From: an uncultured Cellulophaga sp.
GTDB taxonomy: Bacteria; Bacteroidota; Bacteroidia; Flavobacteriales; Flavobacteriaceae
Assembly (NCBI GenBank): GCA_947492955.1
Contig: CANLOV010000001.1
Span: forward strand, 310,001-374,000
Length of the DNA stretch: 64,000 nt
Reading direction: 5' to 3'
Positions 38,201 to 43,446 of this stretch are shown here, one piece after another (within the stretch, counting starts at the first letter, position 1; every line of letters begins with the position of its first letter). A program made the translations under genes and the position numbers. A model generated the notes under the pieces. It was not told the origin of the DNA. It was given only the letters and a program-made list of their open reading frames with translations, and did no database searches.

Positions 38201-39094
38201 TTACTGTGTTAACTCTGTAAACAAGCTTTCTAAATTTTTATTTTTTCGGCTTAATTGTAGCGTTTTTAATTGGTTATCATGCGCAAAGTCAAAAACAACA
38301 GGGCGCATGTCTGTAGTAGTGTTAAATGTAATTTCGTAATTAAACCCGCCTATATTTTTTACTTTGATGGCATGCGGTAATTTTTTTAGAAATGCTTCTT
38401 CAACCCTAAAATCAAACTCAATCTCTATAATTTGTTCTTCTTCGGTTCTAAGTTCGTTTAGTTTTTTATCAGCAACTAATACTCCTTTGTTAATAATAAG
38501 AACGCGATCGCAAACAGCCTCTACTTCTTTCATGATGTGTGTAGAAAGTAAAATAGTTTTTTCTTTACTAATGTCTTTAATTAGTTTTCGTATTTCTAGC
38601 AGTTGGTTAGGGTCTAAGCCTGTAGTAGGTTCATCTAATATAAGTACATCGGGGTTATGTAATAGTGCAGCAGCTAAACCTACACGTTGTCTGTAACCTT
38701 TAGAAAGCTCACTTATTTTTTTATGAGCTTCAGGCTGTAAACCTGTTTGTATTATAACCTCTGCTATTCTGTTTTTGGGTGTTTTGTAAACATCGGCATT
38801 AAAAGCTAAATATTCTTTTACATACATGTCTAAGTAAAGCGGATTGTGTTCTGGTAAGTAGCCAATGCTTTTTTGTACATTTTGTTTATCAGTGATAACA
38901 TCAAAAGAATTTACATTAGCTTCACCTTCATCAGTTGTATGGTAGGTGGTTAAAATTTTCATCATCGTAGACTTTCCTGCTCCATTAGGACCTAAAAAGC
39001 CAACAATTTCACCTTTGTTTATAGAAAAAGATATATTATCCAGTGCTTTTTGAGTTCCAAAACTTTTAGTGATGTTAGTAACCGTTATAGACAT
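38201..39094 (-). CDS. gldA: Gliding-motility ABC transporter ATP-binding protein GldA
   Basis: 297 residues. SITVTNITKSFGTQKALDNISF, Walker A GPNGAGKST (about 36-44), signature LSKGYRQRVGLA, Walker B VLILDEPTTGLDP and H-loop LLSTHIM; the C-terminal extension to residue 297 is like Flavobacterium GldA. GldA works with the permeases GldF and GldG; these are not in the window. In F. johnsoniae, gldA is needed for gliding, though the transporter's substrate is unknown. Confidence 0.9.
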   Translation of the reverse strand: MSITVTNITKSFGTQKALDNISFSINKGEIVGFLGPNGAGKSTMMKILTTYHTTDEGEANVNSFDVITDKQNVQKSIGYLPEHNPLYLDMYVKEYLAFNADVYKTPKNRIAEVIIQTGLQPEAHKKISELSKGYRQRVGLAAALLHNPDVLILDEPTTGLDPNQLLEIRKLIKDISKEKTILLSTHIMKEVEAVCDRVLIINKGVLVADKKLNELRTEEEQIIEIEFDFRVEEAFLKKLPHAIKVKNIGGFNYEITFNTTTDMRPVVFDFAHDNQLKTLQLSRKNKNLESLFTELTQ

Positions 39095-39238: not shown

Positions 39239-39268
39239 TTTGTATATTAAATATAATAATTATCTTAG
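39239..39268 (+). promoter_or_regulatory. Candidate promoter of the aromatic amino acid operon
   Basis: TTTG (39239-39242), 18 bases, TATCTTAG (39261-39268), one base from TAnnTTTG. Transcription would begin around 39272, only a few bases before the leader-peptide ATG at 39278. Confidence 0.45.
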
Positions 39269-39277
39269 CCCCGATTT

Positions 39278-39355
39278 ATGAAAGCAACACAAAAGTATTT
39301 TTGGAATGGTTTTAACTTTTACTTCTTTTTTAAAAGAAGTATGGGACTGTTCTAA
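39278..39355 (+). CDS. Phe/Tyr/Trp-rich leader peptide of the pheA operon (attenuator)
   Basis: A 25-codon ORF, ATG 39278 to TAA 39353-39355. It has 7 Phe (residues 8, 12, 14, 16, 17, 18, 25), 2 Tyr (7, 15) and 1 Trp (9): 10 aromatic of 25. The codons TTT, TTC, TAC, TTT, TTT cluster at 39317-39331. A hairpin ACTTCTTTT/AAAAGAAGT (39321-39340) overlaps the Phe codons, a terminator follows at 39379-39413, and GGGACT (39343-39348) can pair with AGTTCC (39384-39389) of that terminator. This is the layout of E. coli pheL. Stalled ribosomes at low charged tRNA-Phe would favour readthrough into pheA. Confidence 0.85.
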   Translation: MKATQKYFWNGFNFYFFFKRSMGLF

Positions 39356-39378
39356 CATATTTTAAAAATATATAATAG

Positions 39379-39413
39379 AAAAAAGTTCCGATAGAAATCG
39401 GAACTTTTTTTTT
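39379..39413 (+). terminator. Attenuator terminator in front of pheA
   Basis: A perfect GTTCCGAT/ATCGGAAC stem (39385-39404, loop AGAA), preceded by A6 and followed by T9 (39405-39413). It stands between the leader peptide and pheA (ATG 39477), with no gene ending nearby for it to serve, which marks it as a conditional terminator. Confidence 0.88.
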
Positions 39414-39476
39414 ATATAAAATTAAAGTATAGAGTATTTGGTTTATGTTGTGTTAATTAGGGAGTTGTAAATAAAA

Positions 39477-40304
39477 ATGAGTTTAAAAATAGCAATACAA
39501 GGTATAAAAGGTTCTAACCATCATCAGGTGGCTAAAACATACTTTGGTGATGCCGTAGCTGTAGAGGAATGTATGTCTTTCGATAGTTTGGTAGATAGCT
39601 TACTAACAAAAGAGTCAGACCAAGGTATTATGGCAATAGAAAATTCTATTGCAGGTTCTATTATTCCTAATTATGCATTAGTTTATAATAACAATTTACA
39701 TATTGTTGGAGAATATTATTTAAATATTCATCATAATTTAATGGTGTTGAAAGGACAAAAAATAGAGGATATTAAAGAAGTACATTCTCATCCTATGGCA
39801 TTGTTACAATGTAAGAAGTTTTTTAAGCAGTACCCTAGTATTAAATTGGTAGAAGATATAGATACAGCAGAGACCGCTAAGAGAATTCAGGATAATCAGC
39901 TTAAAAATATAGCTGCTATTGCACCAAAAGTAGCAGCAGATTTATACGATTTAGAAATAGTTTCAGACGATATACAAACGATAAAGAATAATTCTACCCG
40001 ATTTATTATCGTAAAAACAAAGAATAAAGCATTACCAGAGATAGAAATTAATAAAGCATCACTGCGTTTTGTGTTGGATCATAAAAGAGGCAGTTTGGCT
40101 ACGGTATTGAATGTAATGAGCGATTGTAATTTAAATTTAACTAAGATACAGTCATTACCAGTAATAGAACAGCCATGGAAATATGCATTTTTTGTAGATG
40201 TTACTTTTGATGTATATGAAAATTTTGCAAAAGCAAAGGCATTATTAGAAATAATGGCAGAGGAGTTTAGAATATTAGGGGCTTATAAAAACGGACGGCT
40301 ATGA
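39477..40304 (+). CDS. pheA: Prephenate dehydratase with C-terminal ACT domain
   Basis: 275 residues. Catalytic domain (about 1-180) with IAIQGIKGSNHHQVAKTYF and NNSTRFIIV, where the Thr-Arg-Phe motif is catalytic, and an ACT regulatory domain (about 195-270). It turns prephenate into phenylpyruvate in phenylalanine synthesis. The ACT motif usually written ESRP reads QSLP here (KIQSLPVIEQPWKYAFF), so the Arg linked to Phe inhibition in other members is Leu. First gene of the four-gene aromatic operon; stop overlaps the next start (ATGA, 40301-40304). Confidence 0.94.
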   Translation: MSLKIAIQGIKGSNHHQVAKTYFGDAVAVEECMSFDSLVDSLLTKESDQGIMAIENSIAGSIIPNYALVYNNNLHIVGEYYLNIHHNLMVLKGQKIEDIKEVHSHPMALLQCKKFFKQYPSIKLVEDIDTAETAKRIQDNQLKNIAAIAPKVAADLYDLEIVSDDIQTIKNNSTRFIIVKTKNKALPEIEINKASLRFVLDHKRGSLATVLNVMSDCNLNLTKIQSLPVIEQPWKYAFFVDVTFDVYENFAKAKALLEIMAEEFRILGAYKNGRL

Positions 40305-41446
40305 TTAGTACAGCTGATAGATTAAATACGATAGAAGAATATTATTTCTCTAAAAAATTAAGAGAAGTACGTGGTTTGGTTACGGCTGGTAAGCCTATTA
40401 TTAATATGGGAATTGGTAGTCCTGATTTAGCACCATCTAATGAAGTTTTAGAAGCTATAAAAATAGCGGTTTTAGATAAAGGGGCACACCAATACCAAAG
40501 TTACCAAGGTTTACCAGAATTAAGAGAAGCTATAGCAGATTTTTATAAGGTAAGTTTTAATGTTGCTCTAAATCCTATGGATGAGGTATTGCCGTTAATG
40601 GGTTCTAAAGAAGGAATAATGCATATTAGTATGGCATTTTTAAACCCTGGGGATGAGGCATTAATACCTAATCCAGGTTATCCTACTTACACATCTGTTA
40701 CTAATTTGGTAGGGGCAAAACCTAAATATTATAATTTAAAAGAAGCTAATAATTGGTTTCCAAATTTAGAAGAATTAGCAGCGCAAGACTTGTCTAAAGT
40801 AAAGATTATGTGGTTAGGTTACCCGCATATGCCAACAGGAGCCACGGCAACTATAGAACAGTTAAAAGAATTGATTAATTTTGCACGCCAGAATAACATA
40901 TTATTGGTAAACGATAATCCATATAGTTTTGTGTTAAATAATAATCCAAAGAGTATTTTGGAGATACAAGGAGCTAAGGAAGTTGCATTAGAATTAAACT
41001 CTCTAAGTAAAACGTTTAATATGGCAGGTTGGCGCGTAGGAATGGTAATGGGGAGTAAAGCCAATATTACTGCAGTATTAAAAGTTAAAAGTAATATGGA
41101 TTCTGGAATGTTTTATGGCGTACAAAAAGGAGCTATAGCAGCATTAAAGAGTGGTAAAGATTGGTTTAAAAAGCTAAATAAAGTATATACTTCTCGTAGA
41201 GAGTTAATGTATACGTTAGCAGATAAATTAAACTGTATATATGATAAAAATGCTGTAGGTATGTTTGTTTGGGCTAAGTTACCAGAAGGCATATCATCCG
41301 CAGAAGAATTTGTAGATAGTGTATTGTACGATAAAGATATATTTATAGCGCCAGGAACTATTTTTGGTAGTAACGGAGAAGGTTATATACGATTTTCTTT
41401 ATGTGTAACAGAAGATAAAATTAAAGAAGCAATAGCAAGGTTTTAA
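40301..41446 (+). CDS. PLP-dependent aminotransferase (class I/II), aromatic or prephenate type
   Basis: 381 residues, fold type I. NMGIGSPDLAPS, the substrate loop GSKEGIMHISMAFLNPGDE, PNPGYPTY, the NDNPYSFV Asp region, the PLP Lys in LNSLSKTFNMAGWRVG, and the C-terminal RFSLC Arg. Position between pheA and tyrA points to the amination of phenylpyruvate and 4-hydroxyphenylpyruvate, or of prephenate itself (arogenate route). Sequence alone does not choose between them. It uses no other operon signal. Confidence 0.88.
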   Translation: MISTADRLNTIEEYYFSKKLREVRGLVTAGKPIINMGIGSPDLAPSNEVLEAIKIAVLDKGAHQYQSYQGLPELREAIADFYKVSFNVALNPMDEVLPLMGSKEGIMHISMAFLNPGDEALIPNPGYPTYTSVTNLVGAKPKYYNLKEANNWFPNLEELAAQDLSKVKIMWLGYPHMPTGATATIEQLKELINFARQNNILLVNDNPYSFVLNNNPKSILEIQGAKEVALELNSLSKTFNMAGWRVGMVMGSKANITAVLKVKSNMDSGMFYGVQKGAIAALKSGKDWFKKLNKVYTSRRELMYTLADKLNCIYDKNAVGMFVWAKLPEGISSAEEFVDSVLYDKDIFIAPGTIFGSNGEGYIRFSLCVTEDKIKEAIARF

Positions 41447-41494: not shown

Positions 41495-42355
41495 ATGAAT
41501 GTATTTGTAATTGGTATAGGGTTAATAGGAGGTTCCATGGTAAAGGACATTAAAGAGTTTTCCTCTGATGTTACTATTTATGGGGTTGATATTAATGATG
41601 CACATTTAGAAGAAGCTTTATCGTTAAATATTATAGACGAAAAAGCAACTTTTAAAGATTTAGCTATTGCCGATGTTGTAATTGTTACCATACCTGTAGA
41701 TGTTATGGTGGTAGAATTACCAAAAATACTAGATGTTGTTTCGGATAATGCAGTGGTTATAGATGCAGGTTCTACAAAGTCATTAATATGTAAAACAGTA
41801 GAAAATCATCCAAAGCGAAGAAATTTTTTAGCTTGCCACCCCATAGCAGGGACAGAATTTTCTGGGCCATCAGCAGCTATTAAAGGCTTGTATAATGGGA
41901 AAACAAATATTATTTGCGAAGTAGAAAAAACAGCATTTAAATTACAAGAAAAGGCATTAGCTTTGTTTCAGCAAATGGGAATGCGTATTAGGTATATGAA
42001 TCCTGAAGCGCATGATAAGCACATAGCATATGTTTCGCATTTGTCTCACATTAGTTCTTTTATGTTAGGCAAAACAGTTATAAACAAAGAAAAGAACGAA
42101 CGCGATATTTTTGATATGGCAGGAAGTGGTTTTGAAAGTACAGTGCGCTTGGCAAAAAGTTCCCCAGCAATGTGGGCACCAATTTTTAAGCATAACAAGC
42201 AAAATGTAATAGAAACCCTAGAGGAATATATCTCTAATTTAGATGCTTTTAAACAAATGCTTTTAGAAGACGATTACGAAGGTATTTACAGAGAAATGAA
42301 CAATACCAATAGGATAAAAGAAATATTAACAGGAATACCACTAAATAAAAAATAG
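41495..42355 (+). CDS. tyrA: Prephenate dehydrogenase
   Basis: 286 residues, NAD-binding GIGLIGGSMVKDI at the N-terminus, then the helical dimerisation domain with HPIAGTEFSGPSAAIKGLYNG and the catalytic His, and SHLSHISSFMLG. It turns prephenate into 4-hydroxyphenylpyruvate (or arogenate to tyrosine). Length and motifs are normal; no ACT domain. Lies 48 bp after the aminotransferase and 8 bp before the DAHP synthase. Confidence 0.94.
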   Translation: MNVFVIGIGLIGGSMVKDIKEFSSDVTIYGVDINDAHLEEALSLNIIDEKATFKDLAIADVVIVTIPVDVMVVELPKILDVVSDNAVVIDAGSTKSLICKTVENHPKRRNFLACHPIAGTEFSGPSAAIKGLYNGKTNIICEVEKTAFKLQEKALALFQQMGMRIRYMNPEAHDKHIAYVSHLSHISSFMLGKTVINKEKNERDIFDMAGSGFESTVRLAKSSPAMWAPIFKHNKQNVIETLEEYISNLDAFKQMLLEDDYEGIYREMNNTNRIKEILTGIPLNKK

Positions 42356-42363
42356 GTAAAGTA

Positions 42364-43446
42364 ATGGAAAATTCAAAACAAATGAGAACATGGTTGGATG
42401 ATATGAACCTAGATCATCCACTAGTGATAGCAGGGCCATGTAGCGCAGAAACCGAGGAGCAAGTGCTGAAAATTGCACACGAACTAAAAGATACTGATGT
42501 TAGTTATTTTAGAGCAGGTATATGGAAGCCAAGAACGCGCCCTGGTAATTTTGAAGGAGTAGGAGCTTTAGGCTTAAAATGGTTGCAAAAAGTTAAAGAA
42601 GAAACAGGAATGAAAACCTGTACGGAAGTAGCTAATGCGGCACATGTAAAATTAGCTTTAGAGCACGATATAGATTTGTTATGGATTGGAGCTCGTTCTA
42701 CAGTTTCACCATTTATTATGCAAGATATTGCAGATGCTTTAGAGGGAACAGATAAGATAGTATTAGTTAAGAACCCTGTAAATCCAGATTTAGCATTATG
42801 GTTAGGTGGTATAGAGCGTTTGCATACCGCTGGTATTAAAAAATTAGGAGCAATACATAGAGGTTTTTCTACTTACGAAAAAACGAAGTATAGAAATACT
42901 CCAGAATGGCAATTAGCGATTGATTTTCAAACGAAATTTCCAGATTTACCTTTAATAAATGATCCTTCTCATATTACAGGAAATAGAGAAATGATTTTTG
43001 ATGTATGTCAGACTGCATTAGATTTAAATTTTGATGGATTAATGATTGAAACTCATTTTGATCCAGATAATGCATGGAGTGATGCTGCGCAGCAAGTAAC
43101 GCCAACAAAATTAGTTGAGATTATGAAGGATTTAAAAATCCGTAAAGAATCTGGACAAGAAGAAGCGTTTAAAGCTGAGTTAGGTAAATTACGTGCTCAG
43201 ATAGATGTTATCGATAATCAGGTAATTGATGTTCTTGGGAAAAGAATGAAGATTTCTGATACCATTGGTGCACTTAAAAAAGAGCAAAATGTTGCTGTTT
43301 TACAAAGCGACAGATGGAATACAATTTTAGGTAAAATGATTCTTGAAGGAGAATCTAAAGGATTAAGCGAGGAGTTTGTTTTAAAAATGTTTAAAGCAAT
43401 TCATCAAGAATCTATTAATCATCAAGAAAAAGTCTTAAAGGCTTAA
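42364..43446 (+). CDS. Fused DAHP synthase (type I-beta) / AroQ chorismate mutase
   Basis: 360 residues. N-terminal DAHP synthase (about 1-265): VIAGPCSAETEEQV, FRAGIWKPRTRPGNFEGVG, LVKNPVNPDLALW, HRGFSTYEK, DPSHITGNRE. C-terminal AroQ helical chorismate mutase (about 275-360): AELGKLRAQIDVIDNQVI, GKRMKISDTIGALKKEQNV. This order (synthase-mutase) is found in Bacteroidota, e.g. Porphyromonas gingivalis, where fusion gives feedback control by prephenate. It supplies both the first step of the shikimate route and the chorismate to prephenate step used by pheA and tyrA. Confidence 0.93.
   Translation: MENSKQMRTWLDDMNLDHPLVIAGPCSAETEEQVLKIAHELKDTDVSYFRAGIWKPRTRPGNFEGVGALGLKWLQKVKEETGMKTCTEVANAAHVKLALEHDIDLLWIGARSTVSPFIMQDIADALEGTDKIVLVKNPVNPDLALWLGGIERLHTAGIKKLGAIHRGFSTYEKTKYRNTPEWQLAIDFQTKFPDLPLINDPSHITGNREMIFDVCQTALDLNFDGLMIETHFDPDNAWSDAAQQVTPTKLVEIMKDLKIRKESGQEEAFKAELGKLRAQIDVIDNQVIDVLGKRMKISDTIGALKKEQNVAVLQSDRWNTILGKMILEGESKGLSEEFVLKMFKAIHQESINHQEKVLKA

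Follow-up and report, generated by a model that had tools for sequence, protein, structure and literature searches.

A predicted ribosome-mediated attenuator of the pheA operon in a Cellulophaga sp. and its conservation among Bacteroidia

Introduction

In E. coli, the pheL-pheA and trpL attenuators combine a leader peptide rich in the amino acid made by the pathway, mutually exclusive RNA pairings (1:2, 2:3 and 3:4) and an intrinsic terminator. To our knowledge, gene regulation in the Bacteroidia has been little studied.

The attenuation mechanism is a classic one and has already been predicted for the pheA operon within the phylum. For the B. thetaiotaomicron operon pheA > hisHb > aroA-aroQ > tyrA, a putative attenuator was listed in 2005 (PMC1173090, Table 7), the table entry being drawn from a prediction website. 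For F. psychrophilum, the passages of PMC9723704 (2021) dealing with 5' elements report strong clues for leader-peptide attenuation before amino-acid operons, and place pheA among the structured 5' elements that are kept in other genera and have no Rfam hits. Leader-peptide-like sORFs of B. thetaiotaomicron are mentioned in general terms in portions of PMC7366714, and the reference list of PMC4833913 includes an entry by Lopatovskaya and others on the attenuation of amino-acid operons; the available portions of PMC4833913 and PMC2864571 yielded nothing on a pheA leader element. Our searches of open-licence PMC papers turned up no account of leaders of this kind ahead of DAHP synthase or phenylalanine hydroxylase genes. 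We have analysed a stretch of 64,000 nucleotides (the window), for which an initial annotation had proposed an attenuator of the pheL-pheA type ahead of pheA, and have compared its leader region with those of relatives.

Results

Operon and genome setting

The window is part of a 3.87 Mb assembly whose named relatives, as judged from pheA, include Maribacter, Arenibacter and other Flavobacteriaceae. The operon lies on the plus strand and starts with pheA, coding for prephenate dehydratase (PDT, 39477..40304), followed by a class I/II aminotransferase gene (40301..41446) that overlaps the pheA stop, by tyrA, coding for prephenate dehydrogenase (41495..42355), and by a DAHP synthase-chorismate mutase fusion (DAHPS-CM, 42364..43446) as the fourth gene, while gldA (38201-39094, minus strand) is the divergent neighbour of the leader and the operon. 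The fusion is the only DAHP synthase detected in its own genome, in which the other DAHP_synth_1 protein is a KDO-8-P synthase and no class II DAHP synthase was detected. The aminotransferase has its top scores against LL-diaminopimelate aminotransferase models, yet these fall under the cut-offs of the models; judged from context, an aromatic aminotransferase role is the likelier one.

A search of this genome with the RNA covariance model described below returned no second copy of the element. A His-codon pattern gave 142 forward and 73 reverse matches in the same genome and was discarded as too loose for use; at the hisG locus (L153) no ATG-initiated ORF shorter than 40 aa with at least 4 His was found, a hisG 5' element being named for F. 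psychrophilum in the passages cited above (PMC9723704).

Leader peptide and promoter

The leader peptide ORF (39278..39355, plus strand, 25 codons) translates as MKATQKYFWNGFNFYFFFKRSMGLF and contains 7 Phe, 2 Tyr and 1 Trp, with an aromatic cluster at codons 7-18 that is kept in relatives. This composition, read from the sequence and its translation, is as the initial annotation had given it, and the segments GGGACT and AGTTCC, the terminator and the pheA start discussed below are likewise present where they had been placed. The last Phe codon (Phe-25, 39350-39352) sits beyond segment 2, which leaves six Phe codons, both Tyr codons and the Trp codon able to sense.

Upstream of the leader, the putative promoter (39240..39268, plus strand) consists of TTG at 39240-39242, an 18-nt spacer and the box TATCTTAG at 39261-39268, and fits the promoter type of the group, the layout TTG-N18-TAnnTTAG being common to most relatives. 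Searching with E. coli promoter hexamers gave 6 matches, against 8.1 expected, and did not recover this putative promoter. The box ends 9 nt upstream of the leader ATG. In the 66 of 71 distinct rows of relatives (see below) that have a good -7 box, this distance has a median of 18 nt and a range of 2-24, the values of 2 and 6 perhaps being caused by a wrong start or box call; six rows, the window included, have 9-10 nt. In alignment A1 the ATG of the window stands 6 columns upstream of that of the nearest rows, inside their 5'UTR. These distances indicate that a very short 5'UTR is typical of the predicted leaders, with the window near the short end, and not unusual as had initially been thought. 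In most family rows the -7 box ends in TTAG, as in the window, and TTTG is commoner in distant rows.

Alternative RNA structures

The first structure, 1:2 or anti-antiterminator (39292..39363, plus strand), is a long stem formed by the helices 39292-39298/39357-39363 and 39301-39314/39342-39355 and the apical helix 39320-39328/39333-39341. It has a folding energy of -21.4 kcal/mol (z -4.2), and it includes segment 2 and the stop codon. The pause hairpin of the initial annotation does exist as its apical hairpin (39320..39341, -7.7 kcal/mol), which reaches -3 kcal/mol or lower in 67/71 rows, but it is only the tip of this stem and not the whole first structure; the reading in which 1:2 would be the apical hairpin alone, non-exclusive with 2:3, was rejected on this ground. 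Segment 2 (GGGACT, 39343..39348, plus strand) can pair with the core of segment 3 (AGTTCC, 39384..39389), to which we add a second helix between 39350-39354 and 39376-39380, the whole antiterminator amounting to -10.1 kcal/mol. Alternatively, segment 3 pairs with segment 4 in the intrinsic terminator (39377..39414 with its U tract; stem 39377-39392/39397-39412), which taken alone has -17.1 kcal/mol. The stretch 39379-39410 looks terminator-like on the minus strand too, and might serve transcripts from both sides.

The competing folds that the initial annotation had called for have been computed. Placing the ribosome at codon 18 leaves RNA that, as long as segment 4 has yet to be transcribed, folds into 2:3 (-10.1 kcal/mol); placing it at the stop codon leaves no fold at all before the terminator appears (-18.1). 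If the ribosome stalls at Trp-9, the apical hairpin and 2:3 remain (-17.8), which means that Trp can act too. In ribosome-free RNA extending up to segment 3, the combination of apical hairpin and 2:3 (-23.7) beats 1:2 (-21.4), so that termination need not follow when translation is absent. All the cases tried have the terminator as their best fold after segment 4 has been added, from which it follows that the choice between folds must be kinetic.

Conservation of the element in relatives

Among 100 relatives, the genome of the window counted with them, 74 have a pheA gene, which was likewise detected in 14 named contigs, and upstream DNA was taken from 72 of the 73 other relatives. Loci of G095 and G226, both with pheA matches, did not enter the comparison. 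In the first set the gene start could be located at 82 loci, of which 14 were named, 8 automatic and 60 fetched, some places being represented twice. By one fixed criterion an aromatic leader is present in 79/82 of these pheA upstream regions, compared with 3/82 reverse strands and 10.6% of dinucleotide shuffles. Of the three loci scored as leaderless, L066 and L081 have no leader by this criterion, and L051 was so scored at first, the element of G030 being located about 520 nt upstream of pheA. The DNA between attenuator and pheA at L051 and L167 (G030), about 520 nt of extra sequence, carries repeated hairpin-forming stretches. After dropping the three loci and the sequence duplicates, 71 distinct rows were retained.

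A second set numbered 48 loci, with 6 from the family, 9 from the order and 33 from the class. Of these, 40 could be scored, 8/48 being dropped since their gene start was not located. The leader is found in 28 of the 40, against 4 reverse strands and 6.4% of shuffles, and the remaining 12 have none by the criterion; among class members outside the order the count is 19/29. An intrinsic terminator lies between leader and first gene in all 71 rows of the first set and all 28 of the second.

From 48 of the 71 rows we have built alignment A1 and a covariance model, which matches 98 of 120 family genomes taken one per genus, a count with rough E-values that includes the own genome and some genomes that supplied model rows. 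Among the weak matches inspected, those at L160, L162, L165 and L223-L228 precede an ORF that resembles PheA by eye; the ones at L159, L161, L163 and L164 are unlike the element on inspection, and so are the weak second model matches in G259, G322, G026 and G022. At the gathering score Rfam gave no match in the window, and a permissive search returned 20 sub-threshold matches in the region with no amino-acid leader among them.

Covariation of the three pairings

The pairings were analysed with an alignment-free test, in which the segments of each row are folded with their own partner and compared with partners from other rows. In the 71 rows the matched and permuted energies are, respectively, -13.35 and -9.0 kcal/mol for the outer arms of 1:2, -11.95 and -8.79 kcal/mol for 2:3, and -14.77 and -10.17 kcal/mol for 3:4, with 0/500 permutations as strong in each case; the control pairing 1:3 gives -3.6 against -3.39, with 37/500 as strong. 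Upon reduction to 20 dereplicated rows, each pairing remains at 0/500 and the control at 18/500. In the 71-row test segment 2 had been picked by its pairing to the terminator arm of the same row, which biases the result toward matched values; when the best 2:3 helix is chosen anew for each permuted partner, the scores are 18.1 and 14.55 (0/1000). The 28 new rows of the second set give 18.95 against 13.16 for the 2:3 score and -13.08 against -8.91 for 1:2 (0/500 both), with 443/500 for the control. The permutation tests support the antiterminator proposed at the outset.

Counting of paired columns in a MAFFT alignment, in the register of the window, gives a less clear outcome for the antiterminator: 77.1% of cells are paired and controls are not clearly beaten, as 49/500 shuffles match this share and a slide of +1 scores slightly higher in covariation. 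RNAalifold likewise reports the terminator only and no antiterminator. A suggested cause is that the 2:3 words differ by lineage (GGGAC/GTCCC, CGAGAC/GTCTCG, AGCGGGA/TCCCGCT) and that the register shifts as well. In the terminator columns 98.6% of cells are paired and four pairs have changed on both sides, and the apical hairpin reaches 86.2% with mixed controls. The 1:2 region has a median folding-energy z of -3.2 relative to shuffles, with z < -2 in 61/71 rows. Overall, the leader, the promoter and the three pairings are kept, with matching change between lineages; conservation of leader and stems, on which the initial annotation had made its proposal depend, was checked and found for both.

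Predicted ribosome position and amino acids sensed

Counting from where the last aromatic codon begins, segment 2 is 8-16 nt away (median 13) in the 71 rows, and its own start falls between 25 nt before and 7 nt after the position at which the stop codon begins. Under the footprint assumed, a ribosome at the stop codon would fully cover segment 2 in 66/71 rows. For a ribosome at the last aromatic codon, the outcome depends on how far it is taken to reach beyond the start of the A-site codon: with 10 nt segment 2 would be wholly exposed in 69 of 71 rows, with 12 nt in 38 and with 14 nt in 8; from this decrease, the first base or two of segment 2 may be covered in many rows.

Codons for Phe and for Tyr are present before segment 2 in 71/71 rows, and for Trp in 49/71; in the pheA leaders taken together Trp occurs in 59/99. 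This composition fits a predicted input led by Phe, with Tyr and Trp contributing, in line with what had first been suggested, and the fact that DAHPS-CM is apparently the sole DAHP synthase would explain the Trp input.

Leaders in genomes without detected prephenate dehydratase

PF00800 was not detected in G044, G050, G059 and G292, the last of which is only 82% complete, whereas a control search was positive in 14/14 genomes. Each of the four has a short aromatic ORF and a terminator before another aromatic gene. In G044 (L230, 793-3998) the order is gldA (divergent), leader MKPIYNFSKAWWHMFQNIR with a Trp-Trp pair, DAHPS-CM and rsgA, which is the locus of the window minus pheA, the aminotransferase and tyrA, an absence established at the level of the locus. 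DAHPS-CM is also preceded by leader MTNNNTWWSNSKFYLKR in G050, and Tyr-rich leaders precede a Biopterin_H (phenylalanine hydroxylase-like) gene in G059 (L157, MKNLNNTYYYYPILTRRIGQ) and G292 (L196, MKTNRIYTIYMYTFYHRWRAR).

A Trp-Trp pair occurs in 2/4 of these leaders and YYYY in 1/4, in both cases against 0/99 pheA leaders, a codon comparison that was made after the pattern had been noticed and in which the pheA leaders, unlike the other four, had been chosen with at least 5 aromatics. The Phe share of the aromatics is 0.40, 0.25, 0 and 0.17 in G044, G050, G059 and G292, respectively; the lowest pheA leaders have 0.29-0.40, so that G044 falls inside their range. Relative to shuffles, 2:3 is clear in G059 (2/500 as high) and G292 (8/500) and weak in G050 (32/500) and G044 (53/500), and the 1:2 region has z values of -2.2 (G044), -4.2 (G050), -4.1 (G059) and -1.7 (G292). 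DAHPS-CM was sought in 25 of the 26 genomes that gave no pheA match, and of these only G044 and G050 have a clear leader with terminator in front of it; the DAHPS-CM genes of G039, G058 and G059 have no clear one. The hydroxylase comparison covers four short hydroxylases, frames of about 400-690 aa that are hydroxylase-like being left out, and within it the short hydroxylases of G267 and G021, which both keep PDT, have no leader with terminator.

From these sequences, we propose, at about even odds, that the element is an old Bacteroidia module whose stall codons would have been re-tuned to whichever amino acid is still produced downstream, with Phe/Tyr(/Trp) before pheA, Trp-Trp before DAHPS-CM where pheA is gone and Tyr-rich leaders before hydroxylase-like genes.

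Discussion

The anatomy of the element, its conservation and the co-variation of its three pairings together lead us to conclude, with a probability of about 0.9, that it acts as a ribosome-mediated transcription attenuator of the pheA operon. In the proposed mechanism, RNA polymerase would start a few bases upstream of the leader ATG, followed by a ribosome. Should charged tRNA-Phe (or -Tyr, or -Trp) be scarce, the ribosome would stall in the cluster at codons 7-18 and open 1:2; with codon 18 in the A site its front edge would lie at about 39341, leaving segment 2 free to pair with segment 3. The terminator would then not form in time, and readthrough would allow transcription of pheA, the aminotransferase gene, tyrA and DAHPS-CM. 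When charged tRNAs are ample, the ribosome would advance to the stop codon (39353-39355) and cover segment 2, so that the 3:4 terminator would fold and transcription would stop near 39414.

Three other explanations deserve consideration. The terminated leader RNA or the peptide might also act in trans, besides or instead of the control in cis: a short RNA would indeed be released, and trans-acting leader RNAs and peptides have precedent in other bacteria. The start and tail of the peptide vary between relatives, which speaks against a conserved role of this kind, and we hold it to be very unlikely. Another explanation, which we find improbable in the extreme, is that the switch is set not by a stalled ribosome but by the binding of some ligand, protein or tRNA to the leader RNA, the ORF being incidental. 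Sequence alone cannot tell which agent sets the switch, and the ribosome-free structures are near balance; nevertheless, the conserved stretch consists of codons, and in the cluster of 25 near rows 9/13 distinct substitutions stay aromatic compared with 18/90 possible ones. Moreover, while the start and tail of the leader vary, the spacing between the cluster and segment 2 remains 8-16 nt, and the codons differ where the downstream gene differs. Finally, chance, by which an AT-rich spacer would carry an accidental TTT-rich ORF and a terminator belonging to something else, is hardly credible: TTT-rich ORFs are common in such DNA, with 10.6% of shuffles scoring as leaders, but the 79/82 regions against 3/82 reverse strands, the co-variation of three pairings and the aromatic residues kept by the cluster substitutions all go against it.

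Read as an attenuator set by a stalled ribosome, the element has several implications. The covariation evidence points to a leader-peptide attenuator of the Proteobacteria type standing ahead of the principal aromatic operon across many Bacteroidia. In the genome of the window, a single leader may control the sole DAHP synthase detected, and the element lends itself well to description as a new Rfam family. The cases of possible re-tuning are the part worth following: if re-tuning is true, the leader codons would reveal, species by species, which aromatic end product is limiting, and the pathway-loss cases are natural experiments in which, if they hold, the codons follow the product as ribosome-mediated sensing predicts.

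In comparison with known systems, the predicted element resembles E. coli pheL-pheA in having a leader peptide, mutually exclusive pairings and an intrinsic terminator followed by pheA. It differs from pheL-pheA and trpL in that its leader mixes Phe, Tyr and Trp codons instead of being devoted to one amino acid, its operon includes the only DAHP synthase detected, its 5'UTR is very short with no Shine-Dalgarno site needed, and curated leader models do not match its sequence. With the B. thetaiotaomicron pheA operon it shares operon content and phylum, the entry there being a table line without leader peptide, sensing codons or species comparison (PMC1173090, Table 7). Another counterpart is the pheA 5' element of F. 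psychrophilum, which has gene and family in common with the window; relative to the passages describing it (PMC9723704), the present work adds the window's genome, the covariation tests and the putatively re-tuned leaders.
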